Below are positions 15,985-40,888 of a stretch of 64,000 nt of DNA, piece by piece. This DNA comes from Nitrosomonadales bacterium. GTDB taxonomy: Bacteria; Pseudomonadota; Gammaproteobacteria; Burkholderiales; Gallionellaceae. The position numbers and the translations under genes were made by a program. Where the stretch lies: positions 124,001 through 188,000 of the forward strand of contig JACRME010000008.1 of assembly GCA_016235045.1 (NCBI GenBank). Direction: 5' to 3'. The notes beneath the pieces were generated by a model. It was not told the DNA's origin and did no database searches. It saw nothing but the letters and a program-made list of their open reading frames with translations. The stretch's first letter is position 1, and every line of letters begins with the position of its first letter.

Positions 15985-17529
15985 ATGCGCGATCCGGGCG
16001 ACGCCGCTGACACCTCACATTCCGACATCCTCAAGATCGTCCTGATCTACGCTGTCTTGGCGGGGCTGTGGATCCTGCTCTCGGATCAAATCACGGAATG
16101 GGTGTTCACCGATGCGACCCTGCTGCACATCGCGCAAACCCTCAAGGGGTGGTTATTCGTAGGCGTCACCTCGATACTGCTCTACTTTCTGCTCGATAAA
16201 TCGTCCCGGCGATCCGGGCGCCCCAACAAGCCGGGGCGGCATTCCGGACTCGTCAACTGGAAGCCCTGGTGGCTTTACCTGTTCGCCGCAACGACAACAC
16301 TCTTCATCCTGCTGATCCGCCAGCACATCGCCATTTCGTCCGGCGAGCGGCCGCTGCTTATCCTGTTCATGCTCCCCATCATCCTGAGCGCGGCGCTCGG
16401 CGGACTCGGCCCCGGATTGACATCGACCGCCATCGCCGCGCTGGCCGTCGCGTATTTCGCCATCCCGCCGGTTGGCAACTTCGGGATCGAACATTCATAC
16501 GATTTGTACCAGCTGCTATTCCTGGTCGCCGAAGGAGTGCTCGTCAGCTATCTCAGCGAAATGCTGCACGAAGCGCGTTACCGCTCCGAAACGGAACGCC
16601 ATAATGCCGAAGCCAACCTGGCAGAAAAAACCCGCGCCATGGAATTGCTCGATGCCATCGCCGAGGGCTCCACCGACGCCACCTTCGCTCAGGACCTGCA
16701 AGGGCGTTACATTCTGCTGAATCGGGCTGCCGCCCGTTTCATCGGCAAGACCACCCGGGAACTATTGGGCCAGAGCGCCGCCGATATCTTTCCGCGCGAG
16801 CAAGAACTCAGCACAAAGGACGGAAGCACGTTCTTTCTGACTACCAAGGGGCCGATACATGACGAAGCCGGCAAGGTGATCGGCCTGTTCGGCATCGCAC
16901 GCGACATCACCGGGATCAAGACCACGGAAGAAGCGTTCAAACGCGAGCGCGACCGCAACCAGCGCTACCTCGACAGCGTCCAGAACATCATGATCGCCCT
17001 CGATACGGAAGGACGCATCGGCATGATCAACCGTTACGGCTGCGAACTGCTGGGTTACCGGGAAAGCGAATTGCTGGGAAAGGACTGGTTCAAAACCTGC
17101 CTGCCGCAACCGGAGGGGATTGAAATCCTTTTGCCGGTTTTCCGCAGAATATTGGCGGGCGACTTGAAAGACACGCAGCACTACGAGAATGCAGTCGTTT
17201 GCCGCGACGGCAGCCGACGGATGATCTCCTGGCGCAATAACTACTTCAAGAACGAAGTGGGCAACATCGTCGGCACGCTCAGCTCCGGCGAAGACATCAC
17301 CGAACGCAAGTCCGCCGAAGCCGCGCTGCTCCGGCAAACCGAGGAAGTGCGCCTGCGCAACGAAGAACTGGAGCGATTCAATCGCGCCTCGGTGGGACGG
17401 GAACTGGACATGATCTCGCTCAAACAGCAGATCAACGAACTGTCCCGCCAACTCGGAAAAGAACCGCCCTACCCGCTCGCCTTCCTCGACACTTCGACCG
17501 GATCGCACCGGGGAGATGAAACGCCATGA
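15985..17529 (+). CDS. membrane PAS-domain sensor protein without kinase domain
   Basis: The 514-residue protein has two N-terminal membrane helices, a second membrane block resembling the KdpD-type DUF4118 bundle (about 90-200), two PAS domains (about 215-320 and 330-435, each followed by an S-box DIT motif) and a C-terminal coiled coil ending in a conserved-looking PYPLAFLD tail. There is no HisKA, HATPase, GGDEF or other output domain. Its TGA overlaps the ATG of the next gene, a histidine kinase (ATGA), so it probably senses a signal and works through that kinase. Confidence 0.85.
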   Translation: MRDPGDAADTSHSDILKIVLIYAVLAGLWILLSDQITEWVFTDATLLHIAQTLKGWLFVGVTSILLYFLLDKSSRRSGRPNKPGRHSGLVNWKPWWLYLFAATTTLFILLIRQHIAISSGERPLLILFMLPIILSAALGGLGPGLTSTAIAALAVAYFAIPPVGNFGIEHSYDLYQLLFLVAEGVLVSYLSEMLHEARYRSETERHNAEANLAEKTRAMELLDAIAEGSTDATFAQDLQGRYILLNRAAARFIGKTTRELLGQSAADIFPREQELSTKDGSTFFLTTKGPIHDEAGKVIGLFGIARDITGIKTTEEAFKRERDRNQRYLDSVQNIMIALDTEGRIGMINRYGCELLGYRESELLGKDWFKTCLPQPEGIEILLPVFRRILAGDLKDTQHYENAVVCRDGSRRMISWRNNYFKNEVGNIVGTLSSGEDITERKSAEAALLRQTEEVRLRNEELERFNRASVGRELDMISLKQQINELSRQLGKEPPYPLAFLDTSTGSHRGDETP

Positions 17530-19781
17530 AATCGCGACTGCTCCTCTCCCTGTTGCTTCCCTTCGTCGCCTGCGCGCTCCAATGGTGGCTGTGGGCTTAT
17601 CTAAGTCCTTACGTCTGGTTCCTGTTTTTTCCGGTGGCGTTTTTCAGCGCATGGATCGGCGGCTTCAGCGGCGGCATCGCCGCAACAGCCATCAGCGCGC
17701 TGCTGGTCTGGTATGTCTTCATGCCGAAGACATTCTCGTTTGAATTGGACAATCCTGCGTCCGCCTTTTCGATTGTCGTATTCGTCATCATGGGCGCTCT
17801 CTTCGCGTTCCTGTTTGAGCGCCTGCGCCATGCAATGCAGCGCACCGGCAAGGAGTTGCAGGTCAGCGAGACGCGTTTCGAAGCCACTTTCGAGCAGGCG
17901 GCGGTCGGCATTGCACTGGCGATGCCAGACGGGCGCTGGCTAAGGGTCAACCGCAAGCTCTGCGAAATCGTCGGCTACGGCTGCGACGAATTGCTGGCCA
18001 AAACCTTCTGGGACATTACGCACCCGGAAGACGTTGAAACCGATCATGCCAATTTGCAGGGAATGCTGTCCGGAGATACCGGGACTTATTCGAAGGAAAA
18101 GCGTTTCATCTGCAAAGACGGCTCTCACGTCTGGATCAACCTCACCGTGTCGCTGGTGCGAAAACCAGACGCCACACCGGACTACTTTATCGCCATCGTC
18201 GAAGACATACAGATGCGCAGGCAAGCCGAGGCCGGGTTGCAGAAAAGTGCGACCCAATTGATCGAGTCGCAGCGCCTGGCCGGTATCGGCAACTGGATGT
18301 GGGATACCAGGGCCGACCGTCACACCTGGTCGGAGGAAATCTACTATATCTATGGCCGCGACCCGTCCCTGCCGCCGGCCATTTATCCGGAAGTTCAGCG
18401 GTATTTCACCCCGGAAAGCTGGGCACGCCTTTCTGCCGCTGTCGAGAAAGGGCTGGCAGAGGGTACCGCCTACGCATGCGATGCCGAGGTGGTGCGCCCC
18501 GATGGCACGCACCGCTGGATCATTGCCCGGGGCGAAGCTGCGCGCGATGCCGATGGCAACATCGTCAACCTGCATGGCACCGTGCAGGACATCACCGAGC
18601 GCAAGCGGGCGGAAGAATCGCTGCGCGAAAGCGAAGAGCGCCTGGCGGGCATCATCGACTCGGCAATGGATGCGATCATTTCCGTGGACGAACGGCAACT
18701 GATACGCCTGTACAACCCGGCCGCCGAAAAGATGTTCGGCCTGGGCGTGGCGGAGGCGACAGGCCAGCCCCTGGCACGGCTCATACCGGAGCGCTTCCGC
18801 CACGCCCATGAAGGCCATATCCGGAATTTCGCCCAAACCGGCATGACGGCGCGCCGCATGGGTTTGCTGGGGGAAGTCAGCGGCCTGCGCCTCAATGGCG
18901 AGGAGTTTCCCGTCGAGGCGTCCATCTCCCAGACCCGCCACGCCGCCGGCAACCTGTTTACGGTGATCTTGCGGGACATCACCGACCGTCGTCGGGCGGA
19001 GGAGGAAATCCTGCGGCTCAACGCCGATCTTGAACGGCGCGTGGAAGAACGCACCGCGAAACTGACCATTGCGAACCGCGAACTGGATAGTTTCTCCTAC
19101 GCCGTCTCGCACGACCTGCGCGCGCCGTTGCGCGCCATGAGCGGCTTCAGCCAGGCGCTTGGCGAGGACTACGGAAGCCAGTTGCAGGGAGAAGCAAAGG
19201 TTTACCTGGAACAGATAGACATCGCCAGCCGCAAAATGAGCGAACTGGTCGACGGCCTGCTGGTGCTTTCGCGCAGCACGCGCGGCGAATTGCATCATGA
19301 CGAGATCGACCTGACCGGCCTGGCGCACCGTCTGCTCGACGAACTGGCGCAAGGCGAGCCGGAACGGCAGGTAGCCAGGCAGGTGGCAACCGGGATTGTC
19401 GTTTTCGGCGATGCGAGAATGATCGAAGTGGTCATGCGCAATCTGCTGGGCAACGCCTGGAAATATACGGCCCATGCGGCCGCACCGGAAATCCGCGTTT
19501 TCGCCGAGGAACGCGATGGTTCCCGCTTTTTCTGCGTCGCCGACAACGGTGCCGGCTTCGATATGGCCCACGCCAACCGGCTGTTCCAGCCGTTCCAGCG
19601 GCTGCATCGCCAGGAGGAATTCGCCGGCATCGGAATCGGCCTCGCCACCGTGCAGCGCATCGTGCACCGCCATGGCGGTGTCATCGAAGCGCGCGGCGAG
19701 CCGGGCAAAGGCGCGGTCTTCGGATTCACTTTATCCGGCAAACCCGCCGCCGATTCCGCGCCTGACAAAAAGGAGCAATGA
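17526..19781 (+). CDS. DUF4118/multi-PAS sensor histidine kinase
   Basis: The 751-residue kinase begins with a four-helix DUF4118-like membrane domain (1-100), followed by three PAS domains (about 115-232, 250-360, 370-490), a coiled linker, a HisKA domain with phospho-acceptor His529 in SYAVSHDLRAPLRAM, and a HATPase domain (N box NLLGNAWKYT, G1 DNGAGFD). The H-box style is that of phytochrome-like kinases that pair with Rcp1-type regulators, and such a regulator follows directly. It overlaps the upstream PAS gene by four bases. Confidence 0.92.
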   Translation: MKSRLLLSLLLPFVACALQWWLWAYLSPYVWFLFFPVAFFSAWIGGFSGGIAATAISALLVWYVFMPKTFSFELDNPASAFSIVVFVIMGALFAFLFERLRHAMQRTGKELQVSETRFEATFEQAAVGIALAMPDGRWLRVNRKLCEIVGYGCDELLAKTFWDITHPEDVETDHANLQGMLSGDTGTYSKEKRFICKDGSHVWINLTVSLVRKPDATPDYFIAIVEDIQMRRQAEAGLQKSATQLIESQRLAGIGNWMWDTRADRHTWSEEIYYIYGRDPSLPPAIYPEVQRYFTPESWARLSAAVEKGLAEGTAYACDAEVVRPDGTHRWIIARGEAARDADGNIVNLHGTVQDITERKRAEESLRESEERLAGIIDSAMDAIISVDERQLIRLYNPAAEKMFGLGVAEATGQPLARLIPERFRHAHEGHIRNFAQTGMTARRMGLLGEVSGLRLNGEEFPVEASISQTRHAAGNLFTVILRDITDRRRAEEEILRLNADLERRVEERTAKLTIANRELDSFSYAVSHDLRAPLRAMSGFSQALGEDYGSQLQGEAKVYLEQIDIASRKMSELVDGLLVLSRSTRGELHHDEIDLTGLAHRLLDELAQGEPERQVARQVATGIVVFGDARMIEVVMRNLLGNAWKYTAHAAAPEIRVFAEERDGSRFFCVADNGAGFDMAHANRLFQPFQRLHRQEEFAGIGIGLATVQRIVHRHGGVIEARGEPGKGAVFGFTLSGKPAADSAPDKKEQ

Positions 19782-19783
19782 CG

Positions 19784-20224
19784 ATGAAAAACAGAACCAT
19801 CCTGCTAGTCGAAGACAACCCCCAGGATGAAATCCTGACCATGCGCGCCCTGAAGAAAATCAACCTGGTCAATGAGGTGGACGTCGCGCGCGACGGGCAG
19901 CAAGCGCTCGATTACCTGTTCGGCGAAGGCGAATTTGCCGCCCGCGACGCTTCCGAAATGCCCGCGGTCGTGCTGCTCGATATCGGCCTGCCGCGCCTGT
20001 CCGGGCTGGAGGTGCTGGAACGGCTAAGGGCGGAGGAGCGCACGCGGCTGTTGCCGGTGGTCATCCTCACCTCCTCGGACGACGAGCGCGACCGCTTGAA
20101 GAGCTATGAGAACGGCTGCAACAGCTTCGTGCGCAAGCCGGTGGAATTCGCCGAGTTTGCCGAGACCGTGGCGCGACTGGGCATCTATTGGCTGGCCACC
20201 AACGAACCGCCGCCGGGCAAATGA
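19784..20224 (+). CDS. single-domain response regulator, Rcp1-like
   Basis: This 146-residue protein is a receiver domain only, with acidic pocket ED (10-11), phospho-acceptor Asp66 (LLDIGLP), Thr96 and Lys118. The extended loop around FGEGEFAARDASEMP is typical of Rcp1-type partners of phytochrome-like kinases. An ATG at 19778 overlaps the kinase stop, but AGGAG at 19771-19775 is two bases from it and eight from the ATG at 19784, so the latter is chosen. It probably takes phosphate from the preceding kinase and may shuttle it to another protein. Confidence 0.9.
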   Translation: MKNRTILLVEDNPQDEILTMRALKKINLVNEVDVARDGQQALDYLFGEGEFAARDASEMPAVVLLDIGLPRLSGLEVLERLRAEERTRLLPVVILTSSDDERDRLKSYENGCNSFVRKPVEFAEFAETVARLGIYWLATNEPPPGK

Positions 20225-20231
20225 GACCGCC

Positions 20232-22424
20232 ATGAGCAAACCGCTGCGAATCATCGTCATCGAGGACGAAACCGCCGACTTTCTGCTGCTGGAGCGCAGT
20301 CTTCGCCAGCATGACATGCTGGCGGTTTGCCAACGCGTCGGCAGCGATGCCGAACTGGATAGCGCATTGCAGGATAAAAGCGATGTCGTGCTCTCGGATT
20401 ACAACGTGCCGGGCATGGATTTTGGCACTTCGCTGCAACGCATTCAACAGCGCTGGCCCGATTTGCCGGTCATTCTGGTCTCCGGCACGGTGGGCGAGGA
20501 AAAAGCGGTGGAGTTGCTGCGCCTGGGAATGACGGACTTTGTTTTCAAGGGCCACCTGAACCTCCTGCCCAAGGCCATCCAGCGCGCCATCGACGAAGGA
20601 AACGAACGCCGCGCCCGCCGCGACGCGGAAGCTGCCCTGCAACAAAGCCAGGCGGCCGCATTGGAAGAGCAGCGCGTGGCGCGATTGGCGGCGCTCAACC
20701 TGATGGAGGATGCCGTGGCTGCCCGCGCCCGCGCCGAAGCAGCCAACGCCGAGTTGCGCAAACTCTCGCTGGCGGTGGAACAAAGCCCGGAGAGCATCGC
20801 CATCACCAACCTCGATGGCGACATCGAATACGTGAATGAATTCTTCGTGCAAAACTCCGGCTACAGCCGCGAGGAAATCATCGGCCGGAATCCGCGCATT
20901 CTGCACTCGGACAAGACGCCGAAACACACCTACGATGATTTATGGCATCACCTGACATCGGGCGAAACCTGGCAGGGCGAGTTCATCAACCGGCGCAAGG
21001 ACGGCAGCGAATACATCGAGCACGCCATCGTCAGCCCGATCCGCCAGCCGGATGGGCGTATCACGCATTACGTGGCGATAAAGGAAGACATCACGGAAAA
21101 GAAGCGCGCCGAGGCTGAAATACATCGCCTGGCCTTTTACGACACGCTCACCGGACTGCCGAACCGCACCCTGCTGCTGGAACGCACTACCCAGGCATTG
21201 GCCACGATCCGGCGAGTCGGCCATTTCAGTTCGCTGATTTCCTTCAACATCGACCGCTTCAAAAACATCAACGATGCCGGAGGACAATCGCTGGGCGACG
21301 TATTGCTCAGGGCCGTGAGCGAGCGCCTGACAAATATCCTGCATGAGGGGGATGTTGTGGCCCGCATTGCCGGAGACGAGTTCTGCATCCTGCTGTCGGA
21401 TCTCGCTCCCCAGCAGCAAACAGCCATGCATCTCGCCATCTGGGTGTCGGAAAAACTCCATTCCTGCCTGCAGGATCCGTTCCGCGTGGGCGACGAACTC
21501 ATCACCCTCACCGCCTGCCACGGCATCGCCATTTTCCCCGACAAAACGGAAGATGCGCCGCTGGACATCCTGCGCCGCGCAAACTCCGCCCTGCACCACG
21601 CCAAAACCAAGGGAAGCGGACAGACCTCCTTCTTCGAAACTGCGCTGGACGAAATTGCCAGACAGCGCTTCGACATCGAGAGGGAATTGCACCAGGGCAT
21701 TACCGCCGGGGAACTGCGGGTATTCCTGCAACCGCAAGTGGATGCCGCCGGAAAGATCGTCGGTGCGGAATCGCTGGTACGCTGGCAGCACCCGCAACAC
21801 GGCCTGCTGTCGCCGGGCGCATTCATCCCGATTGCCGAGGAATCGAATCTCATCATCGAGATCGGCACCTGGGTATTCACCGAGGTATGCCGCCTGCTGG
21901 CGCATAACGACATGGCAACCCTGCCGATACGAATCTCGGTCAACATCAGTCCGCGCCATTTCAGGCAATCCGGTTTTGTCGATCAGATCAAACAGGGGCT
22001 TGCCGACGCCGGTGCGGATCCGGCGCGTCTCACGCTGGAAGTGACGGAGGGGATGGTGATCGACAACATCGATGAAGTCATCGGCAAGATGAACGAGCTG
22101 AGCTCAATCGGCATCCATTTCTCCATGGATGACTTCGGCACCGGTTACTCGTCGCTGTCCTACCTCAAGCGCCTGCCCATCCACGAGCTCAAGATCGACA
22201 AGAGTTTTATTCAGGATCTGACCATCGATCCCGGCGACGACGCGCTGGTCGAGGCCATCCTTGCCGTGGCCAGGCTCATGCATGTGAACGTGGTGGCGGA
22301 AGGCGTGGAAACGGCCGAACAGGCCGCGTTCCTGAACCTGCGCGGCCAGGTCATCCATCAGGGTTATTTGTTCGGCCGGCCGGAACAGGCGGAAACGGTG
22401 ATCGCCAACATGCTTAAACAATAA
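20232..22424 (+). CDS. REC-PAS-GGDEF-EAL signalling protein
   Basis: The 730-residue protein has a receiver domain (Asp56 in LSDYNVPG, Lys106), a coiled linker (about 125-180), a PAS domain (about 180-292), a GGDEF domain and an EAL domain. The GGDEF motif is AGDEF (380-384), and the usual first metal Asp of the DxD segment is Asn339 (FNIDRF), so cyclase activity is doubtful. The EAL domain keeps ESLVRW (513-518), EVTEG, DDFGTGYSSL, KIDKSFI and EGVET, so it is expected to hydrolyse cyclic di-GMP. It is the last gene of the cassette, seven bases after the response regulator, and abuts the convergent alr gene. Confidence 0.92.
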   Translation: MSKPLRIIVIEDETADFLLLERSLRQHDMLAVCQRVGSDAELDSALQDKSDVVLSDYNVPGMDFGTSLQRIQQRWPDLPVILVSGTVGEEKAVELLRLGMTDFVFKGHLNLLPKAIQRAIDEGNERRARRDAEAALQQSQAAALEEQRVARLAALNLMEDAVAARARAEAANAELRKLSLAVEQSPESIAITNLDGDIEYVNEFFVQNSGYSREEIIGRNPRILHSDKTPKHTYDDLWHHLTSGETWQGEFINRRKDGSEYIEHAIVSPIRQPDGRITHYVAIKEDITEKKRAEAEIHRLAFYDTLTGLPNRTLLLERTTQALATIRRVGHFSSLISFNIDRFKNINDAGGQSLGDVLLRAVSERLTNILHEGDVVARIAGDEFCILLSDLAPQQQTAMHLAIWVSEKLHSCLQDPFRVGDELITLTACHGIAIFPDKTEDAPLDILRRANSALHHAKTKGSGQTSFFETALDEIARQRFDIERELHQGITAGELRVFLQPQVDAAGKIVGAESLVRWQHPQHGLLSPGAFIPIAEESNLIIEIGTWVFTEVCRLLAHNDMATLPIRISVNISPRHFRQSGFVDQIKQGLADAGADPARLTLEVTEGMVIDNIDEVIGKMNELSSIGIHFSMDDFGTGYSSLSYLKRLPIHELKIDKSFIQDLTIDPGDDALVEAILAVARLMHVNVVAEGVETAEQAAFLNLRGQVIHQGYLFGRPEQAETVIANMLKQ

Positions 22425-26658: not shown

Positions 26659-27939
26659 TCATCCACCCTGCCGCCCCTGCACGACCTCGCGGTAAAATTT
26701 GCAGGTGTTCTTTCCGCTCTGCTTCGCCAGGTACATCGCCTCATCCGCCTGCTGGATGAGCTTTTCCGGGGTTTTGGAATTTTCCGGGAACATGGAAATG
26801 CCGATGCTGCCTCCCACCCGGCAATGCTGGCCCTTCAGATCGAACGGTTGCGCCAGCGCGGCGATGATCTTTCTGGCCACCAGCGCCGCATTGTCGTGCG
26901 ATTCGATATTGTCCAGCACCAGGATGAATTCGTCCCCGCCCACCCGCGCCACGGTATCGGAATCGCGTATCGTTTCCTTGATCCTTTTCGCGACATCCTT
27001 CAACAGCATGTCCCCGGTGTCGTGTCCCAGCGCATCGTTGACTTTCTTGAATCCGTCCAGATCGAGAAACAGGATGGCGGCCTTGTGCTTGTTGCGCTTC
27101 GCCAGGGAAATGGAATGGTTGAGCACATCCAGGAACAGGGCGCGGTTCGGCAGGTCGGTCAGGTAGTCGTAGTGCGCCAGGTGCGCGATTTTTTTCTCGG
27201 CGCGCTTGCGCTCCGTGATGTCCCGGGCGATGCCGATAAAGTAGCGATGGCCGCCCAATGCCATTTCCGACACGGATATTTCCATGGGGAATTCTTCGCC
27301 GCCCTTGCGCGCAGCCGTCACTTCCCTGCCGCGCACGCCCAGTATCCGCGCCTGGCCCGTTTCCAGATAGCGCTTGATGTAGCCGTCGTGCCTGCCCCGA
27401 TCCGGCTCCGGCATGAGCATCTTCAGATTTTTGCTCAGTGCTTCCTGTTGCGTATAGCCGAAAATTTCCTCGGCGGCGGGATTGAACCCCTGAATTTCCC
27501 CGGTCTCGTTGATCATGATGATGCCGTCCATCACGTTGCGGATAATGGATTGCAACTGATAGTGGCTTTTCTCGAGTTCGCCTTTGACTTGCTTCAGGTT
27601 GGTGACCATCTGCCAGAACAGTTTGACCTCCGTGCCGCTGGCAACCCGCTTGTCGCCAAAAATCTTGCGTACTTCTTCGGCAATCGAGTCGTCGTGCGAC
27701 AGGTTGTACACCAGGCAATCGGGGTAGTCCTTGCAGGCCTGCAGCGCCTTGACCGGATCGACATAGGTCGGTATCCCGTTCTTTACTGCCAACTGGAGGC
27801 CGGGTGCCTTTGGGTCGGTATCGGCAATCGCCATCACCTTGACCAGATTGTCCTCCATGAACATTTCCAGCAGCGCAGCCCCGCCGCGGCCGGCACCGAT
27901 AATCACGACCGGGTATCCCCGGACTTTTGGCGTTGCCAT
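26659..27939 (-). CDS. diguanylate cyclase with N-terminal Rossmann-like domain and PAS
   Basis: The 426-residue protein starts with a Rossmann-like dinucleotide fold (VVIIGAGRGGAALLEMF, residues 11-27, then MAIADTDPKAPG and VYNLSHDDS), followed by a linker helix, a PAS domain (about 128-245) and a GGDEF domain. GGDEF is intact (334-338), with the LDLDGF metal motif and an RxxD inhibitory site (Arg325-Asp328), so it should make cyclic di-GMP and be product-inhibited. The start at 27939 has GAAGGAG nine bases upstream; a much longer open frame upstream has no support. A close paralogue lies at 38024-39286. The Rossmann module as sensor is unusual. Confidence 0.9.
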   Translation of the reverse strand: MATPKVRGYPVVIIGAGRGGAALLEMFMEDNLVKVMAIADTDPKAPGLQLAVKNGIPTYVDPVKALQACKDYPDCLVYNLSHDDSIAEEVRKIFGDKRVASGTEVKLFWQMVTNLKQVKGELEKSHYQLQSIIRNVMDGIIMINETGEIQGFNPAAEEIFGYTQQEALSKNLKMLMPEPDRGRHDGYIKRYLETGQARILGVRGREVTAARKGGEEFPMEISVSEMALGGHRYFIGIARDITERKRAEKKIAHLAHYDYLTDLPNRALFLDVLNHSISLAKRNKHKAAILFLDLDGFKKVNDALGHDTGDMLLKDVAKRIKETIRDSDTVARVGGDEFILVLDNIESHDNAALVARKIIAALAQPFDLKGQHCRVGGSIGISMFPENSKTPEKLIQQADEAMYLAKQSGKNTCKFYREVVQGRQGG

Positions 27940-28195
27940 GAACACTCCTTCAGAAGGCCTTGAATTTGGTAAGGGAATTCTTGCACATTTAGCGCGCATC
28001 CGCTCATGCATCGAGCGGACGAAGTTCGCCTGCACGTTCTGGCTGTGATCCAGCAGCACCCCATTGATGTTGCATCGGGATTTGCCGGGGCCGGGGTCAC
28101 GCTCTATTATCCCGACTGGCGATATGATCCGGTTGCGCTGTCTGCTCCGGCAATATTGCGTGACTTCCCCAACACGACCGTACAAGGGCACTCGC

Positions 28196-29311
28196 ATGAA
28201 AATAGGCATCCCCAAAGAGATCAAGACCAACGAAAACCGCGTCGCGCTGGTGCCGGCTGGCGCTGAAGCCCTGGTCGCGGCCGGGCATGCGGTTGTCATG
28301 GAAACGGGCGCCGGCCTGGGCAGTGGTTTCAGCGATGCGCAATACCTGGCTGCCGGTGCGCAAATCGCCGGGGATGCCGACGCCGTATGGGCCGGCTCGG
28401 ACATGATCGTGAAAGTGAAAGAACCCATCGAGCCGGAATGGAAACGCATCCGGCCCGGCCAGGTCATTTTCACGTATTTCCATTTCGCCGCCAGCGAGCA
28501 GTTGACCAGGGCGCACATGGCCTCCGGCGCGATCTGCATTGCCTATGAAACGGTGGAGCTGCCATCGCGCGAACTGCCGTTGCTCACGCCGATGTCGGAA
28601 GTGGCCGGGCGCATGGCGGTGCAGGAAGGCGCCAAGTATCTGGAGAAATTGAACGGCGGGCGCGGCATCCTGTTGAGCGGCGTGCCCGGCGTGCCGCCGG
28701 CCAAGGTGGTGATACTCGGCGCAGGCGTGGTCGGCGTGAATGCGGCAAAAATCGCGGCGGGCATGGGTGCCAGCGTCGCCGTTCTCGACGTCAATCTGGA
28801 ACGGCTGCGCTACCTGAGCGACGTGATGCCGGCCAACGTGCAACTGGTATTCTCGGACCGGCACAACCTGCTGGCGCAGATTGCCAGCGCCGACCTGATC
28901 GTCGGCGCGGTGCTGATACACGGCGCCGTTGCGCCGAAATTGATACGCCGCGAAGACCTCAAGACCATGCGCGCGGGCGCGGTGATCGTGGACGTTTCCG
29001 TCGATCAGGGCGGCTGCGTCGAAACCACGCGCCCGACCACGCACGAAAATCCGGTGTTCATCGTGGACGGCGTGGTGCATTACGGCGTGGCCAACATGCC
29101 CGGCGGCGTGCCGATCACTTCGACGCTGGCGCTGACCAACGCCACCCTGCCCTATGTGCTGAAACTGGCGAACAAGGGCTGCCAGCGGGCGCTCAAGGAA
29201 ACACCGGAACTGCAGAACGGACTCAACATCATCAACGGAAAAATCACGCACCGCAAAGTTGCCGAAGCTTTCGGCATGGACTATCACCCGGCAGAATCCC
29301 TGCTTGACTGA
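28196..29311 (+). CDS. ald: alanine dehydrogenase
   Basis: Ald interconverts L-alanine with pyruvate and ammonia using NAD+. The 371-residue length is exactly that of the family. Motifs seen are MKIGIPKEIKTNENRVALVP (1-20), the Lys-containing VKVKEPIEPEW, and the NAD loop GAGVVGVNAAKIAAGMGA, with NMPGGVPITSTLAL towards the C-terminus. It is divergent from the diguanylate cyclase across a 256-base gap in which I see no clear promoter or operator. Confidence 0.96.
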   Translation: MKIGIPKEIKTNENRVALVPAGAEALVAAGHAVVMETGAGLGSGFSDAQYLAAGAQIAGDADAVWAGSDMIVKVKEPIEPEWKRIRPGQVIFTYFHFAASEQLTRAHMASGAICIAYETVELPSRELPLLTPMSEVAGRMAVQEGAKYLEKLNGGRGILLSGVPGVPPAKVVILGAGVVGVNAAKIAAGMGASVAVLDVNLERLRYLSDVMPANVQLVFSDRHNLLAQIASADLIVGAVLIHGAVAPKLIRREDLKTMRAGAVIVDVSVDQGGCVETTRPTTHENPVFIVDGVVHYGVANMPGGVPITSTLALTNATLPYVLKLANKGCQRALKETPELQNGLNIINGKITHRKVAEAFGMDYHPAESLLD

Positions 29312-29324
29312 AACAGCAGACCGT

Positions 29325-30215
29325 TCAGGCCAGATAGCCCTCGGCGATATGGCGGTAGACCAACCCCTTCAGCCAGAGCGCATCGGCGGCGGGAACGTCG
29401 CGGAAGGCGATGCCGTATTCCAGCATGTTGCTCTCGGCGGTCTGGCCCGGATGCGGTGCATGCGCATGCAGAATGGTTGCATCGAGGCTGAGCGCGGTGC
29501 TGATGTCGTCCATGTCCGCATGGAAAGAAAGACGCAGCGTGTCGCCCGGTTTGCCCAATGGGATGGGCGCATGCAATTGCGCGCCATCCGGACTGAGGTT
29601 GACGATGCGCACGACCTCGTGCGCCCCCCGGGCATCGGTTGAGGTGGCACTGAGATTCACTCTCGCCCACGGCGATTTGCGCAGCGTCTGCGCGCGCACC
29701 TCGGTCGGATACTCCAGGTGCATGTAATGGACCGGGCTGACGCACAGGCGCTGGATCGGGGTCTGGAACGCGTAGATGTTGCTGCCGGTCACCATGCGCA
29801 CTTCCAGTTGTTCGCCGTCGGCCAGGATGAGCGGAACGCCGTCGATCATCGGCGTCAGCACCAGTATGCTCCGGTTCGCGATATAGCCGACCAGCCGGGC
29901 AGTGTAATAGGCTTGCAGGTTGCGGTTCAGCAGGCGCAGTTGCACCAGTTCGCCGATCTGCGGCTTGATGCCCGCCGGCGGAAATGTCGCGCTCGGCGCG
30001 ACTTCCCTGAACTCGGTCCATTCGCCCGTCTCGCGCTTTTTCGCCGGCGAATCCATGTCGCGCAGCAAACCTTGTCCCAGCAGGCTCTCCAGTTGTTCGC
30101 GGCTGGCAACGATCTCGCTGCGCGCAAACACGATATAACCGTTGCGGTCATACAGTCGCCACGGCAGCGGCTTGCCGAGCGGGATATCTTCGATGGGCAC
30201 TGGCTGGAGGTTCAT
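29325..30215 (-). CDS. YcgR-type PilZ protein (cyclic di-GMP effector)
   Basis: The 296-residue protein has an N-terminal YcgR-like domain (about 75-170, GELVQLRLLNR..., with VLTPMIDGVPLIL) and a C-terminal PilZ domain (about 175-290). The PilZ motif reads RKSPWAR ... NLSPDGA, close to RxxxR and (D/N)xSxxG, so cyclic di-GMP binding is likely. In known YcgR proteins this brakes flagellar rotation, but no flagellar gene is nearby. The start at 30215 is preferred over a GTG at 30239 because GGAG lies eight bases upstream. Confidence 0.85.
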   Translation of the reverse strand: MNLQPVPIEDIPLGKPLPWRLYDRNGYIVFARSEIVASREQLESLLGQGLLRDMDSPAKKRETGEWTEFREVAPSATFPPAGIKPQIGELVQLRLLNRNLQAYYTARLVGYIANRSILVLTPMIDGVPLILADGEQLEVRMVTGSNIYAFQTPIQRLCVSPVHYMHLEYPTEVRAQTLRKSPWARVNLSATSTDARGAHEVVRIVNLSPDGAQLHAPIPLGKPGDTLRLSFHADMDDISTALSLDATILHAHAPHPGQTAESNMLEYGIAFRDVPAADALWLKGLVYRHIAEGYLA

Positions 30216-30303
30216 GGCGGCAACTCCGCTAACGGGCACGGCGGGAATGTTAACATTCTTGCGGCAACGGGAAGTCGATGCAATTTTCCCGCGTCCTTTT
30301 CCA

Positions 30304-38023: not shown

Positions 38024-39286
38024 CTACCCTATGTCGCGATAAAAGCGGCAGGTGTTCTTTCCGTTCTGTTTCGCCAGGTACATCGCTTTGTCGGCAAACT
38101 CGACCAGCTTCTCCGGGTCGCCGGAGTCATCCGGGAACAGCGAAATACCGATGCTGGCTCCCACCCGGCAATTTTGCCCCTTCAGCTCGAACGGCACCCG
38201 CAACGCCGAAATGATTTTATTGGCCACCAGCGCTGCATTCTCATCCGATCCGATGTTGTCCAGCACCAGGATGAATTCATCCCCGCCAACCCGCGCCACC
38301 GTATCCGATTCCCGAACCGTCTCCCTGAGCCGCTGGGAAACCCCTTTCAGCAGCAGGTCTCCGGCATCGTGCCCCTGGGTGTCGTTGATCTTCTTGAATC
38401 CGTCCAGGTCGAGAAACAGGACGGCCGTTTTGCGCTCAATGCGTTTGGCCAGCGCGATGGAGTGCTGGAGGATATCCAGGAACAGCGCGCGGTTGGGCAG
38501 ATCGGTCAGGTAGTCGTAGTGCGCCAGATGGGCGATCTTCTGTTCGGCCAGTTTGCGCTCGGTGATATCGCGCACGATACCGATAAAGTAGCGATGTCCG
38601 CCCAGCACCATTTCCGACGCCGACAATTCCATGGGAAAGGTGTCGCCGTTTTTCCTGACGGCAGTCACCTCGCGCCCGCGTATGCCCAGTATCCTGGCCT
38701 GGCCGGTTTGCAAATAACGCCCGATATAGCCGTCGTGCGCGCTCCGGTCCGGCTCCGGCATCAACATGCTGAGATTTTTGCCTGTCACTTCCTGTTGCGA
38801 GTATCCGAATATCTGCTCGGCAGCCGGATTGAAGCCCTGGATTTCCCCCGATTCGCTGATCGTGATGATTCCATCCATCACGTTGCTGATAATGGACTGC
38901 AACTGATGCTGGCTCTTCTCGAGATCGCCCTTGATTTGCTTGAGGTTGGTGACCATCTGCCAGAACAACTGCACTTCAAGACCGCTGGCCACCCGTTTGC
39001 CGCCAAATACCTTGAGCGCTTCGTCGGCAATGCTGTCGTCGTGCGACAAGTTGTACACGATGCAATCGGGGTAATCCTTGCAGGCTTGAAGCGCCTTGAT
39101 GGCATCGGTGTAGGTTGGAATCCCGCTTTCCAGTGCCAGCCTGATGCCGGGCGCCTTGGCGTTCGTGTCGGCGATGGCCACGACCTTGACCAGACTATCG
39201 GCCAGGAACATCTCCAGCAACGCGGTGCCCCCGCGCCCGGCGCCAATGATCAAGACCGGGTATCCCGGCGTTTTTTGCAGAGCCAT
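38024..39286 (-). CDS. second Rossmann-PAS-GGDEF diguanylate cyclase (paralogue)
   Basis: This 420-residue protein is collinear with the product of 26659-27939 over its whole length: LIIGAGRGGTALLEMF, VYNLSHDDS, PAS domain, GGDEF (334-338), the LDLDGF metal motif and an RxxD inhibitory site (RESD). About two thirds of positions are the same by eye. Charges in the Rossmann domain and the C-terminal ends differ most. GGGGGAG lies upstream of the ATG. It is expected to make cyclic di-GMP. Sitting 10 kb from its copy, it points to duplication and divergence of a sensor enzyme. Confidence 0.9.
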   Translation of the reverse strand: MALQKTPGYPVLIIGAGRGGTALLEMFLADSLVKVVAIADTNAKAPGIRLALESGIPTYTDAIKALQACKDYPDCIVYNLSHDDSIADEALKVFGGKRVASGLEVQLFWQMVTNLKQIKGDLEKSQHQLQSIISNVMDGIITISESGEIQGFNPAAEQIFGYSQQEVTGKNLSMLMPEPDRSAHDGYIGRYLQTGQARILGIRGREVTAVRKNGDTFPMELSASEMVLGGHRYFIGIVRDITERKLAEQKIAHLAHYDYLTDLPNRALFLDILQHSIALAKRIERKTAVLFLDLDGFKKINDTQGHDAGDLLLKGVSQRLRETVRESDTVARVGGDEFILVLDNIGSDENAALVANKIISALRVPFELKGQNCRVGASIGISLFPDDSGDPEKLVEFADKAMYLAKQNGKNTCRFYRDIG

Positions 39287-39343: not shown

Positions 39344-40888
39344 CTAATTCGCTCCGCGCTTCGAAAAATCCCCGAGGCGGAAACCCAACCCGTACAGCGC
39401 GGTAAAATACACCGCCACGCCCAACGCCACCAGCCAGGCGAGGTGGACGATGCGCGTCCAGCCGTGGCTGGTGAGCCAGTGTTGTTCGCTGCCCATGCCG
39501 AACCAGAGCGTCAGCCCCAGCGCCAGCAGGGCGATGCACAGCTTGAGAAAGAACTTGCCCCAGCCCGGTTCAGGTTGGTAAATGCCGCGCTTGCGCAGCA
39601 AATGGAACAGGATGGCGGAATTGAAGCAGGCGCCGAGGCCGATGGAAAGCGCCAGCCCGGCGTGGTGCAATTCCAGGCCGAATACGAACAGCAAGTTCAT
39701 CAGTTGCGTGGCGATCAGGGTCGCGATGCCGATCTTGACCGGGGTTTTGATGTCCTGCCGCGCATAGAAGCCGGGCGCCAGCACCTTCACCGCGATAATG
39801 CCGATGAGGCCGATGCTGTAGCCGATCAGGGCATGGCTCGTCTTCAACACATCGACGGCATGGAAGGCGCCGTGCTGGAAAAAGGTCGCCAGCAATGGCA
39901 CGGCGATCATGCCCAGCGCCAAGGCGGCGGGCAGCGTAAGCATGAAGACGAGGCGCAAGCCCCAGTCCAGCAATTTGGAGTATTCCGCCGTGCTGTTGTC
40001 GGCATGGTGTTTGGAAAGCGAAGGCAGCAGGATGGTGCCGAGCGCCGCCCCCAGCAGGCCGGAGGGGAATTCCATCAGGCGGTCCGCGTAATACAGCCAG
40101 GACACGCTGCCCGCCACCAGGAACGAGGCGAAGATGGTGTTGATGATCAGGCTGATCTGCGCGATGGATACGCCGAATACCGCAGGCCCCATCTGCCTGA
40201 TGACGCGCCGCATGCCCTCGTCCTGCAGGCTGAAACGGATGCTCGGCAACATGCCGATCTTTTTCAGGAACGGAATCTGGAACGCAAGCTGAATGAAGCC
40301 AGCAATAAACCAGGCCCAGGCCAGCCCCACGATGGGCTGTTCGAAATTCGGCGCCAGCCACAACGCCCCGCCAATCAGGCAGACGTTCAACAGGATGGGA
40401 GCGACAGCGGGCACCCAGAATTTGTTGTAGGTATTGAGTATGCCGGCCGCCACCGACACCAGCGAGATGAAGAAGATGTAGGGCGAAGTAATGCGCAACA
40501 AATGGACGGTGAGATCGAATTTCTCCGCGTCCTTCGCGAAACCCGGCGCGGTGATATAAATGATCAGCGGCGCGGCAACAATGCCGATGAACGTCACCAC
40601 AAACAGCGCCAGCGCCAGCAGGGTCGTGACATGATCCACCAGCAACTTGGTATCGTCGTGCCCGCGGCGTTTGTTGTATTCGCCGAAAATCGGCACAAAC
40701 GCCTGCGAAAACGCGCCCTCGGCAAACAGGCGGCGCAGCATGTTGGGCAAGCGGGTGGCGATAACGTAGGCATCGTTCGCCATGCCCGCACCGAAAATGC
40801 GCGCAATCAGGATATCGCGCACGAAGGCGAGGATGCGCGAAACCAGGGTCAGGCTGCTGACCGCAGCAAGGGCTTTAAGCAGATTCAT
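39344..40888 (-). CDS. murJ: lipid II flippase MurJ
   Basis: MurJ moves lipid II across the inner membrane for peptidoglycan synthesis. The 514-residue protein has about 14 membrane helices and the family start MNLLKALAAVSSLTLVSRIL, followed by GAGMANDAYVIATRLPNMLRR, FAEGAFSQAFVPIFGEY and the arginines of the central cavity. It stands upstream of the second diguanylate cyclase on the same strand and close to rpsT, its usual neighbour in many proteobacteria. Confidence 0.96.
   Translation of the reverse strand: MNLLKALAAVSSLTLVSRILAFVRDILIARIFGAGMANDAYVIATRLPNMLRRLFAEGAFSQAFVPIFGEYNKRRGHDDTKLLVDHVTTLLALALFVVTFIGIVAAPLIIYITAPGFAKDAEKFDLTVHLLRITSPYIFFISLVSVAAGILNTYNKFWVPAVAPILLNVCLIGGALWLAPNFEQPIVGLAWAWFIAGFIQLAFQIPFLKKIGMLPSIRFSLQDEGMRRVIRQMGPAVFGVSIAQISLIINTIFASFLVAGSVSWLYYADRLMEFPSGLLGAALGTILLPSLSKHHADNSTAEYSKLLDWGLRLVFMLTLPAALALGMIAVPLLATFFQHGAFHAVDVLKTSHALIGYSIGLIGIIAVKVLAPGFYARQDIKTPVKIGIATLIATQLMNLLFVFGLELHHAGLALSIGLGACFNSAILFHLLRKRGIYQPEPGWGKFFLKLCIALLALGLTLWFGMGSEQHWLTSHGWTRIVHLAWLVALGVAVYFTALYGLGFRLGDFSKRGAN

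Follow-up and report, generated by a model that had tools for sequence, protein, structure and literature searches.

The gene considered here occupies positions 26659–27939 of a 64,000-nucleotide window (positions 124,001 to 188,000 of contig JACRME010000008.1, assembly GCA_016235045.1) from a Nitrosomonadales bacterium of the family Gallionellaceae, and encodes a protein, P0002, of 426 aa in which a Rossmann domain, a PAS domain of the FixL type and a GGDEF domain follow one another (Table 1; residues are numbered from the first Met). A previous interpretation made from the DNA letters alone (the sequence-only reading) had given exactly these coordinates and had missed the strand: the translated open reading frame runs on the minus strand, from 27939 to 26659, and the position of its start codon is matched by many homologues. 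The plus-strand frame of the same interval is likewise open, and open mirror frames are frequent in G+C-rich genes. All of the elements that had been listed for the protein, namely GAGRGG, ADTDPKAPG, VYNLSHDDS, a PAS domain, GGDEF (334–338) and RxxD (R325, D328), are present in the translation. A second gene of the same architecture lies in the window, and its product, 76% identical to P0002 across residues 1–419, also carries the GAGRGG loop, as had been stated, and keeps the GGDEF and RxxD motifs. The genome as a whole has two sequence matches to the N-terminal domain and 55 GGDEF matches; with profile A1 at E <=1e-3 the former number rises to four, one of the two extra matches being a standalone Rossmann protein (L169).

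Table 1. Features of the cyclase gene, its product P0002 and the paralogous locus, in coordinates of the window
Feature	Position	Strand	Evidence or remark
Whole gene, Rossmann-PAS(FixL-type)-GGDEF protein	26659..27939	-	Translation, GAAGGAG, homologue starts
Ribosome-binding-site-like GAAGGAG	27945..27951	-	Read in the sequence, 5 bases upstream of the ATG at 27939
N-terminal Rossmann domain, residues 1-118	27586..27939	-	AlphaFold2 model, fold matches, below-cut-off Pfam matches to NAD-binding families
GxGxxG loop GAGRGG, residues 15-20	27880..27897	-	GxGxxG in 129/137 homologues
Asp40, end of beta2, expected adenosine-ribose holder	27820..27822	-	Asp in 134/137, Asp/Glu in 137/137
Continuous helix from Rossmann domain to PAS, residues 103-136	27532..27633	-	Full-length model; pLDDT 62-69 (blocks of ten)
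PAS domain, FixL-type, residues 128-241	27217..27558	-	Pfam PF00989; FixL 9.9e-35, then DosP
His184, aligned with FixL His	27388..27390	-	Alignment; kept in 56/61; in helix 180-194 of the model
Arg205, aligned with FixL Arg	27325..27327	-	Kept in 55/61; one-residue insertion before Arg205
GGDEF diguanylate cyclase domain, residues 255-411	26707..27177	-	Pfam PF00990, E 4.3e-52
Inhibitory-site motif RxxD, residues 325-328	26956..26967	-	R325 and D328 invariant in 24 A2 rows
Active-site motif GGDEF, residues 334-338	26926..26940	-	Alignment, residues checked
Paralogue, same architecture	38024..39286	-	76% identity; 57 bases downstream of murJ
murJ	39344-40888		Upstream of the paralogue

Modelled with AlphaFold2, residues 1–118 form a confident and compact Rossmann fold (predicted local distance difference test score, pLDDT, 89; predicted template modelling score, pTM, 0.84), and the alternating beta/alpha arrangement is found both in the model and in a fold search. 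The best solved fold neighbours include NAD(P)-dependent enzymes, NAD-dependent dehydrogenases among them, and the NADH sensor Rex, and some of the neighbours are NADP+ complexes. The interpretation of the N-terminus as a Rossmann fold, already offered by the sequence-only reading, thus stands as a matter of predicted structure. Both the GxGxxG loop and the acid at the end of beta2 are present in P0002. According to the available text of PMC6125430, Asp115 of Thermotoga Rex hydrogen-bonds the adenosine; Asp40 would be its equivalent, judging from that text and from alignment ranges, with Rex outside the printed alignments. When profiles of the domain were compared with PDB sequences, NAD-dependent acetaldehyde dehydrogenases came first (E 7.5e-6 with A1 and 2.1e-7 with A3). 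Weak Pfam matches among 32 members were to GFO_IDH_MocA (29/32), DapB_N (27/32) and CoA_binding (13/32); the homologue L141 passes the GFO_IDH_MocA (PF01408) cut-off at 25.2, and the standalone L169 passes those for GFO_IDH_MocA and NAD_binding_3. On these features a nucleotide-sensing function of residues 1–118 is likely, and binding of NAD(P) by the domain, with control of the cyclase thereby, is plausible.

Conservation was assessed in 137 homologue rows, derived from 173 translated loci found by similarity to the N-terminal domain; 13 loci were removed by name, and the remainder were merged where residues 21–120 were identical. Those removed comprised other proteins (L009, L011–L014, L016 and L170), a standalone Rossmann protein (L015; the similar L156, L157 and L169 were kept), two genes cut at contig ends (L036 and L098), one with a masked stretch (L108) and two repeats (L110 and L111). 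The glycine loop is kept in orthologues and in more distant relatives, being intact in 69/69 GGDEF-bearing rows labelled Gallionellaceae and in all except one of the GGDEF-bearing rows overall. The argument that its presence in both paralogues goes beyond chance is therefore borne out by the homologues at large, where the loop and the beta2-end acid persist at the frequencies given in Table 1. The domain that carries it is not confined to these two proteins but recurs at the N-terminal end of a range of signalling proteins.

Searches covered the Pseudomonadota, plasmids and one contig scan with exact peptide patterns (40 loci, all of the close group). A single-sequence search at E <=1e-3 found the domain in 50/100 genomes of Gallionellaceae (own included), the loci including Gallionella, Sideroxydans, Sideroxyarcus and others, and in 15/274 genomes of the class of the window (own included); judging by eye from the translations, seven of the other 14 class genomes have signalling proteins and seven have other proteins, one of the latter a standalone Rossmann protein. 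Profile A3 at E <=1e-10 matched 63/78 genomes of one class, taken here to be the Zetaproteobacteria, and 34/48 of another, taken to be the Magnetococcia (hereafter Zetaproteobacteria-type and Magnetococcia-type); it also matched 13/369 genomes of the window's class, or 12/368 when its own genome is left aside, four of these 12 matching at ~1e-11 in short frames that may belong to other proteins. Across the phylum, profile A1 at E <=1e-3 matched 151/398 genomes, a figure that includes weak matches, likely to ordinary dehydrogenases. Both A1 and A3 hold rows from genomes that were later counted, and those genomes match by construction. The N-terminal domain, used in two versions as a tblastn query against plasmids, gave no match.

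The outputs attached to the domain are varied, as judged from architecture labels assigned by length and motif. The Rossmann-PAS-GGDEF form of P0002 accounts for 54 Gallionellaceae rows (one of these with another PAS), seven Zetaproteobacteria-type rows and L132, which is labelled "other" and is a PAS form with GGDEY; L059, labelled PAS-GGDEF, carries a different PAS. Short Rossmann-GGDEF forms of 261–314 aa make up 38 rows (15 Gallionellaceae and 23 Zetaproteobacteria-type), with the GGDEF motif at residues 199–213 versus 334 in P0002, and two further Rossmann-GGDEF rows come from the Magnetococcia-type class and two from other genomes. Five rows have a GAF-type domain between the Rossmann and GGDEF domains, as do three from further genomes of the class of the window, and seven rows encode a Rossmann-GAF-kinase-REC-REC-GGDEF protein of ~1013 aa. 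A Magnetococcia-type Rossmann-MCP form of 210–216 aa accounts for 13 rows (L145–L155, L168 and L173), and no membrane segments were seen by eye in those printed. By eye, L010 is a Rossmann-PAS-kinase protein cut at the locus end, and four rows hold the domain only. A Pfam run on seven example homologues found MCPsignal in L145, GGDEF in L158, L144 and L123, PAS and GGDEF in L112, and GAF, HisKA, HATPase_c, two receivers and GGDEF in L141; no GAF was found in L158. With its N-terminal position constant and its outputs varied, the distribution of the domain looks like the pattern of a sensor module. The relatives that lack a PAS suggest that the Rossmann input may be able to act alone. As a separate observation, L169 (G000:C28:96917-97240), L156 and L157 consist of a related Rossmann domain alone, of ~124 aa, and at the two loci viewed a gene that appears Crp/Fnr-like by eye adjoins the standalone gene or lies ~2.4 kb off.

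The PAS domain had been recognized by the sequence-only reading, which had missed its FixL-type character and the conserved histidine. A search of PDB sequences with this domain gave FixL as the best match (9.9e-35 and others) and DosP next (4.3e-18); 13 of the 14 matches at E <=1e-5 are FixL or DosP under several names, and the remaining one is a multi-sensor kinase. RHDSYISRY of FixL aligns with RHDGYIKRY of P0002, which places His184 opposite the FixL histidine that serves as heme ligand. Further along the alignment, Arg205 lies opposite the FixL arginine that acts as distal switch. The fair measure of conservation is that given in Table 1 for the 61 homologues having a FixL-type PAS, since the histidine is invariant by selection in the A2 alignment, whose 24 chosen rows exclude the five that lack it. 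The PAS is most likely a heme-binding sensor of oxygen, and on sequence grounds oxygen sensing via heme is as well supported as dinucleotide sensing. The N-terminal domain is not the only predicted input of the protein, and the sequence-only picture is to be extended by a heme-type PAS and by a family of related sensors.

The C-terminal domain has the fold, active-site motif and RxxD of a GGDEF diguanylate cyclase, and P0002 is predicted to synthesize cyclic di-GMP. G334–E337 are invariant in the A2 rows, and an RxxD lies five residues upstream in 111/111 rows with GG[DE]EF. In a full-length model (24 rows, mean pLDDT 85.6) the Rossmann domain passes into the PAS through a continuous helix, and a second helix (242–256) connects the PAS with the GGDEF domain.

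In the surroundings of the gene, an alanine dehydrogenase gene (28196–29311, plus strand) is divergent from the cyclase gene and separates it from a gene ~1.4 kb away (29325–30239, minus strand) for a YcgR-type PilZ protein (PilZNR 6.5e-17, PilZ 1.5e-8), likely a cyclic di-GMP receptor by its domains. A run of signalling genes at 15985–22424 (plus strand) encodes a DUF4118-PAS protein, a DUF4118-PAS histidine kinase, a single receiver-like protein (by eye) and a REC-PAS-GGDEF-EAL protein. The alanine dehydrogenase gene was considered as a clue to NAD signalling and rejected, as it occurs at 0/40 homologue loci. The murJ gene next to the paralogue is present at 6/40 homologue loci (L070–L109, flanks up to 3 kb, several shorter), and wider flanks at three loci gave no further usable clue.

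The presence of one architecture in two classes suggests exchange between lineages. In a tree of the N-terminal domain (87/137 rows, capped at 14 per class, over 115 columns, with long-branch warnings), the Gallionellaceae PAS-GGDEF rows group with four Zetaproteobacteria-type PAS-GGDEF rows (support 97/86), and this joint group is nested in a clade of the remaining Zetaproteobacteria-type PAS-GGDEF rows. The transfer signal of that tree was not upheld by the full-length proteins (31 rows), for which monophyly of the eight Zetaproteobacteria-type rows was not rejected (approximately unbiased test, p 0.158). A copy in L094, from a metagenome-assembled genome whose record is titled Giesbergeria sp., falls inside the Gallionellaceae rows and probably lies on a misbinned contig.

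The proposal made for P0002 is that of a soluble diguanylate cyclase receiving input both from a Rex-like NAD(H) domain and from a heme PAS; its chances of being right and wrong are judged to be evenly balanced. Several results weigh against it. Residues 1–118 of P0002 reach no Pfam cut-off, the best score, for GFO_IDH_MocA with the N-terminal domain alone, being 18.6 bits against 24, and the sequence match to Rex (1e-3) is no better than matches of a chance type to designed TIM barrels (9.1e-5, A1) and ribosomal S2 (4.7e-4, A3). In the alignments as printed, the acetaldehyde dehydrogenases that head the sequence matches show no Asp at the end of beta2. The GxGxxG is kept in 7/13 MCP-type proteins and eroded in 6/13, and binding may have been lost in the latter. 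The heme His is absent in 5/61 PAS homologues, being Phe in L077 and Tyr in L093 and L107 (all Gallionellaceae) and Pro in L136 and L139 (both Zetaproteobacteria-type). Within flanks of up to 3 kb there is no conserved NAD-metabolism neighbour, and the absence of alanine dehydrogenase from all 40 loci therefore leaves its gene as no evidence for NAD signalling. Finally, the full-length model has a pTM of 0.51 and low pLDDT in the joining helix (Table 1), and the mutual placement of the domains is therefore uncertain.

The fold and motifs of the N-terminal domain would also accommodate other functions. Its ligand might be another one, for instance NADP(H), coenzyme A (CoA) or acyl-CoA, or another adenine nucleotide, so that it would report carbon or energy metabolism and not NADH/NAD+; in sequence it is nearest to the acylating acetaldehyde dehydrogenases, in which this domain comes into contact with CoA as well as NAD, and the weak CoA_binding matches and the NADP+ complexes among the fold neighbours point in the same direction. 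The beta2 acid and the full GxGxxG typical of NAD(H) binders are nevertheless kept, and GFO_IDH_MocA and DapB_N match more members than CoA_binding does, making such a ligand unlikely. Erosion of the loop in part of the MCP branch, together with PAS heme residues that are mostly kept, would suit a Rossmann domain that binds no ligand and serves as a dimerization or docking platform, with the heme PAS as the sole real sensor. The probability of this appears small: the GGDEF-bearing rows preserve the loop with a single exception, the 38 short forms are without room for a PAS and have the Rossmann domain as their only evident input, and the five rows without the heme His retain an intact Rossmann loop.

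A dehydrogenase-type fold and motif could further mean that the domain is still catalytic and that signalling proceeds via turnover, not ligand occupancy. This is very improbable, as Pfam and the full-length model place the PAS and GGDEF domains after the Rossmann domain, with no C-terminal substrate-binding or catalytic half in the chain and the last Rossmann helix running into the PAS; a sensor is therefore favoured over an enzyme, although a partner could supply the other half. It is also rather improbable that the sensor type has already been described under another name. The literature searched was open-licence only and the family libraries were Pfam, NCBIfam and PADLOC, a scope that leaves room for such a precedent, yet all Pfam families score below their cut-offs in residues 1–118, PADLOC gave no match, and the available text of the cyclic di-GMP sensing review PMC8846402 is without the word "Rossmann", its NADH passages concerning RmcA. 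By title and the start of the abstract, the open-licence literature yielded no description of a Rossmann or NAD(H) sensor domain on GGDEF, kinase or chemotaxis outputs.

Each part of the proposed dual-input cyclase resembles a known system and departs from it. Rex acts on transcription by means of a DNA-binding domain, whereas the predicted output of P0002 is cyclic di-GMP; that domain, N-terminal in Rex, is absent from P0002, in which the first strand of the Rossmann fold begins at residue 9. In the Rex dimer the C-terminal helix is swapped, and P0002 has a long helix at 103–136, seen in a monomer model only. The N-terminal domain of acylating acetaldehyde dehydrogenase (DmpF/PheF type) is the closest neighbour in both sequence and fold, but belongs to an enzyme with a catalytic domain, which P0002 does not have. 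Likewise, the NAD-binding domain of the GFO_IDH_MocA family, the most frequent weak Pfam match, occurs in P0002 without the substrate-binding half. The heme PAS of FixL and DosP resembles the PAS of P0002, with the His aligned to that of FixL, apart from the one-residue insertion ahead of the Arg relative to FixL; their outputs are a histidine kinase and a phosphodiesterase, respectively, in contrast to the GGDEF cyclase of P0002 with its Rossmann domain ahead. Globin-coupled oxygen-sensing diguanylate cyclases, as presented in the available text of PMC8846402 and PMC7033309, feed a heme input to a GGDEF output, as is proposed for P0002, but use a globin where P0002 uses a PAS, and are without a dinucleotide-type domain.

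In the mechanism proposed, the minimal Rossmann module, equivalent to a dehydrogenase reduced to its dinucleotide-binding half, most likely has NAD(H) as its ligand and would report the NADH/NAD+ state, in a manner comparable to the role of the Rossmann domain of Rex in DNA binding. Ligand occupancy would shift the pose of the last Rossmann helix, with which the connector into the PAS begins, and the heme PAS would contribute an oxygen signal. The helix after the PAS would relay both signals together to the GGDEF domain, the linker setting the pairing of two GGDEF domains; cyclic di-GMP would then be made, with product feedback at the RxxD. The ligands, the dimeric action and the activating ligand state belong to the proposal, which builds on the computed fold, conservation, domain order, helix continuity (monomer model) and distribution. 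In microaerophilic iron oxidizers, attachment or motility would in this way be coupled jointly to electron supply and oxygen. The groups that carry the domain all live where gradients of reductant and oxygen run against each other, a habitat that, as indirect evidence, fits redox or energy sensing.

A more general form of the proposal, put forward tentatively and held to be possible, is that an undescribed and widely reused Rex-like reader of NADH/NAD+ feeds cyclic di-GMP synthesis, histidine kinases and chemotaxis-type proteins in bacteria of oxic-anoxic boundaries, weighs electron supply against oxygen together with a heme sensor in P0002, and has been exchanged between freshwater and marine iron oxidizers. 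In the available text of the cyclic di-GMP census PMC8846402, NADH is a possible indirect effect on RmcA, and no case was found there of the NAD(H) pool controlling cyclic di-GMP directly. The Zetaproteobacteria pan-genome paper PMC8250860 stresses cyclic di-GMP genes for holding position and, in the available text, names no input; in that of the Gallionellaceae comparative genomics paper PMC3770913, very many GGDEF genes are described with no mention of a Rossmann domain. Microaerophilic iron oxidizers must stay where Fe(II) and O2 overlap, and the Rossmann module is a concrete candidate input for that task. If the proposal is true, the cell may tie its decision to settle or swim to its own energy state.
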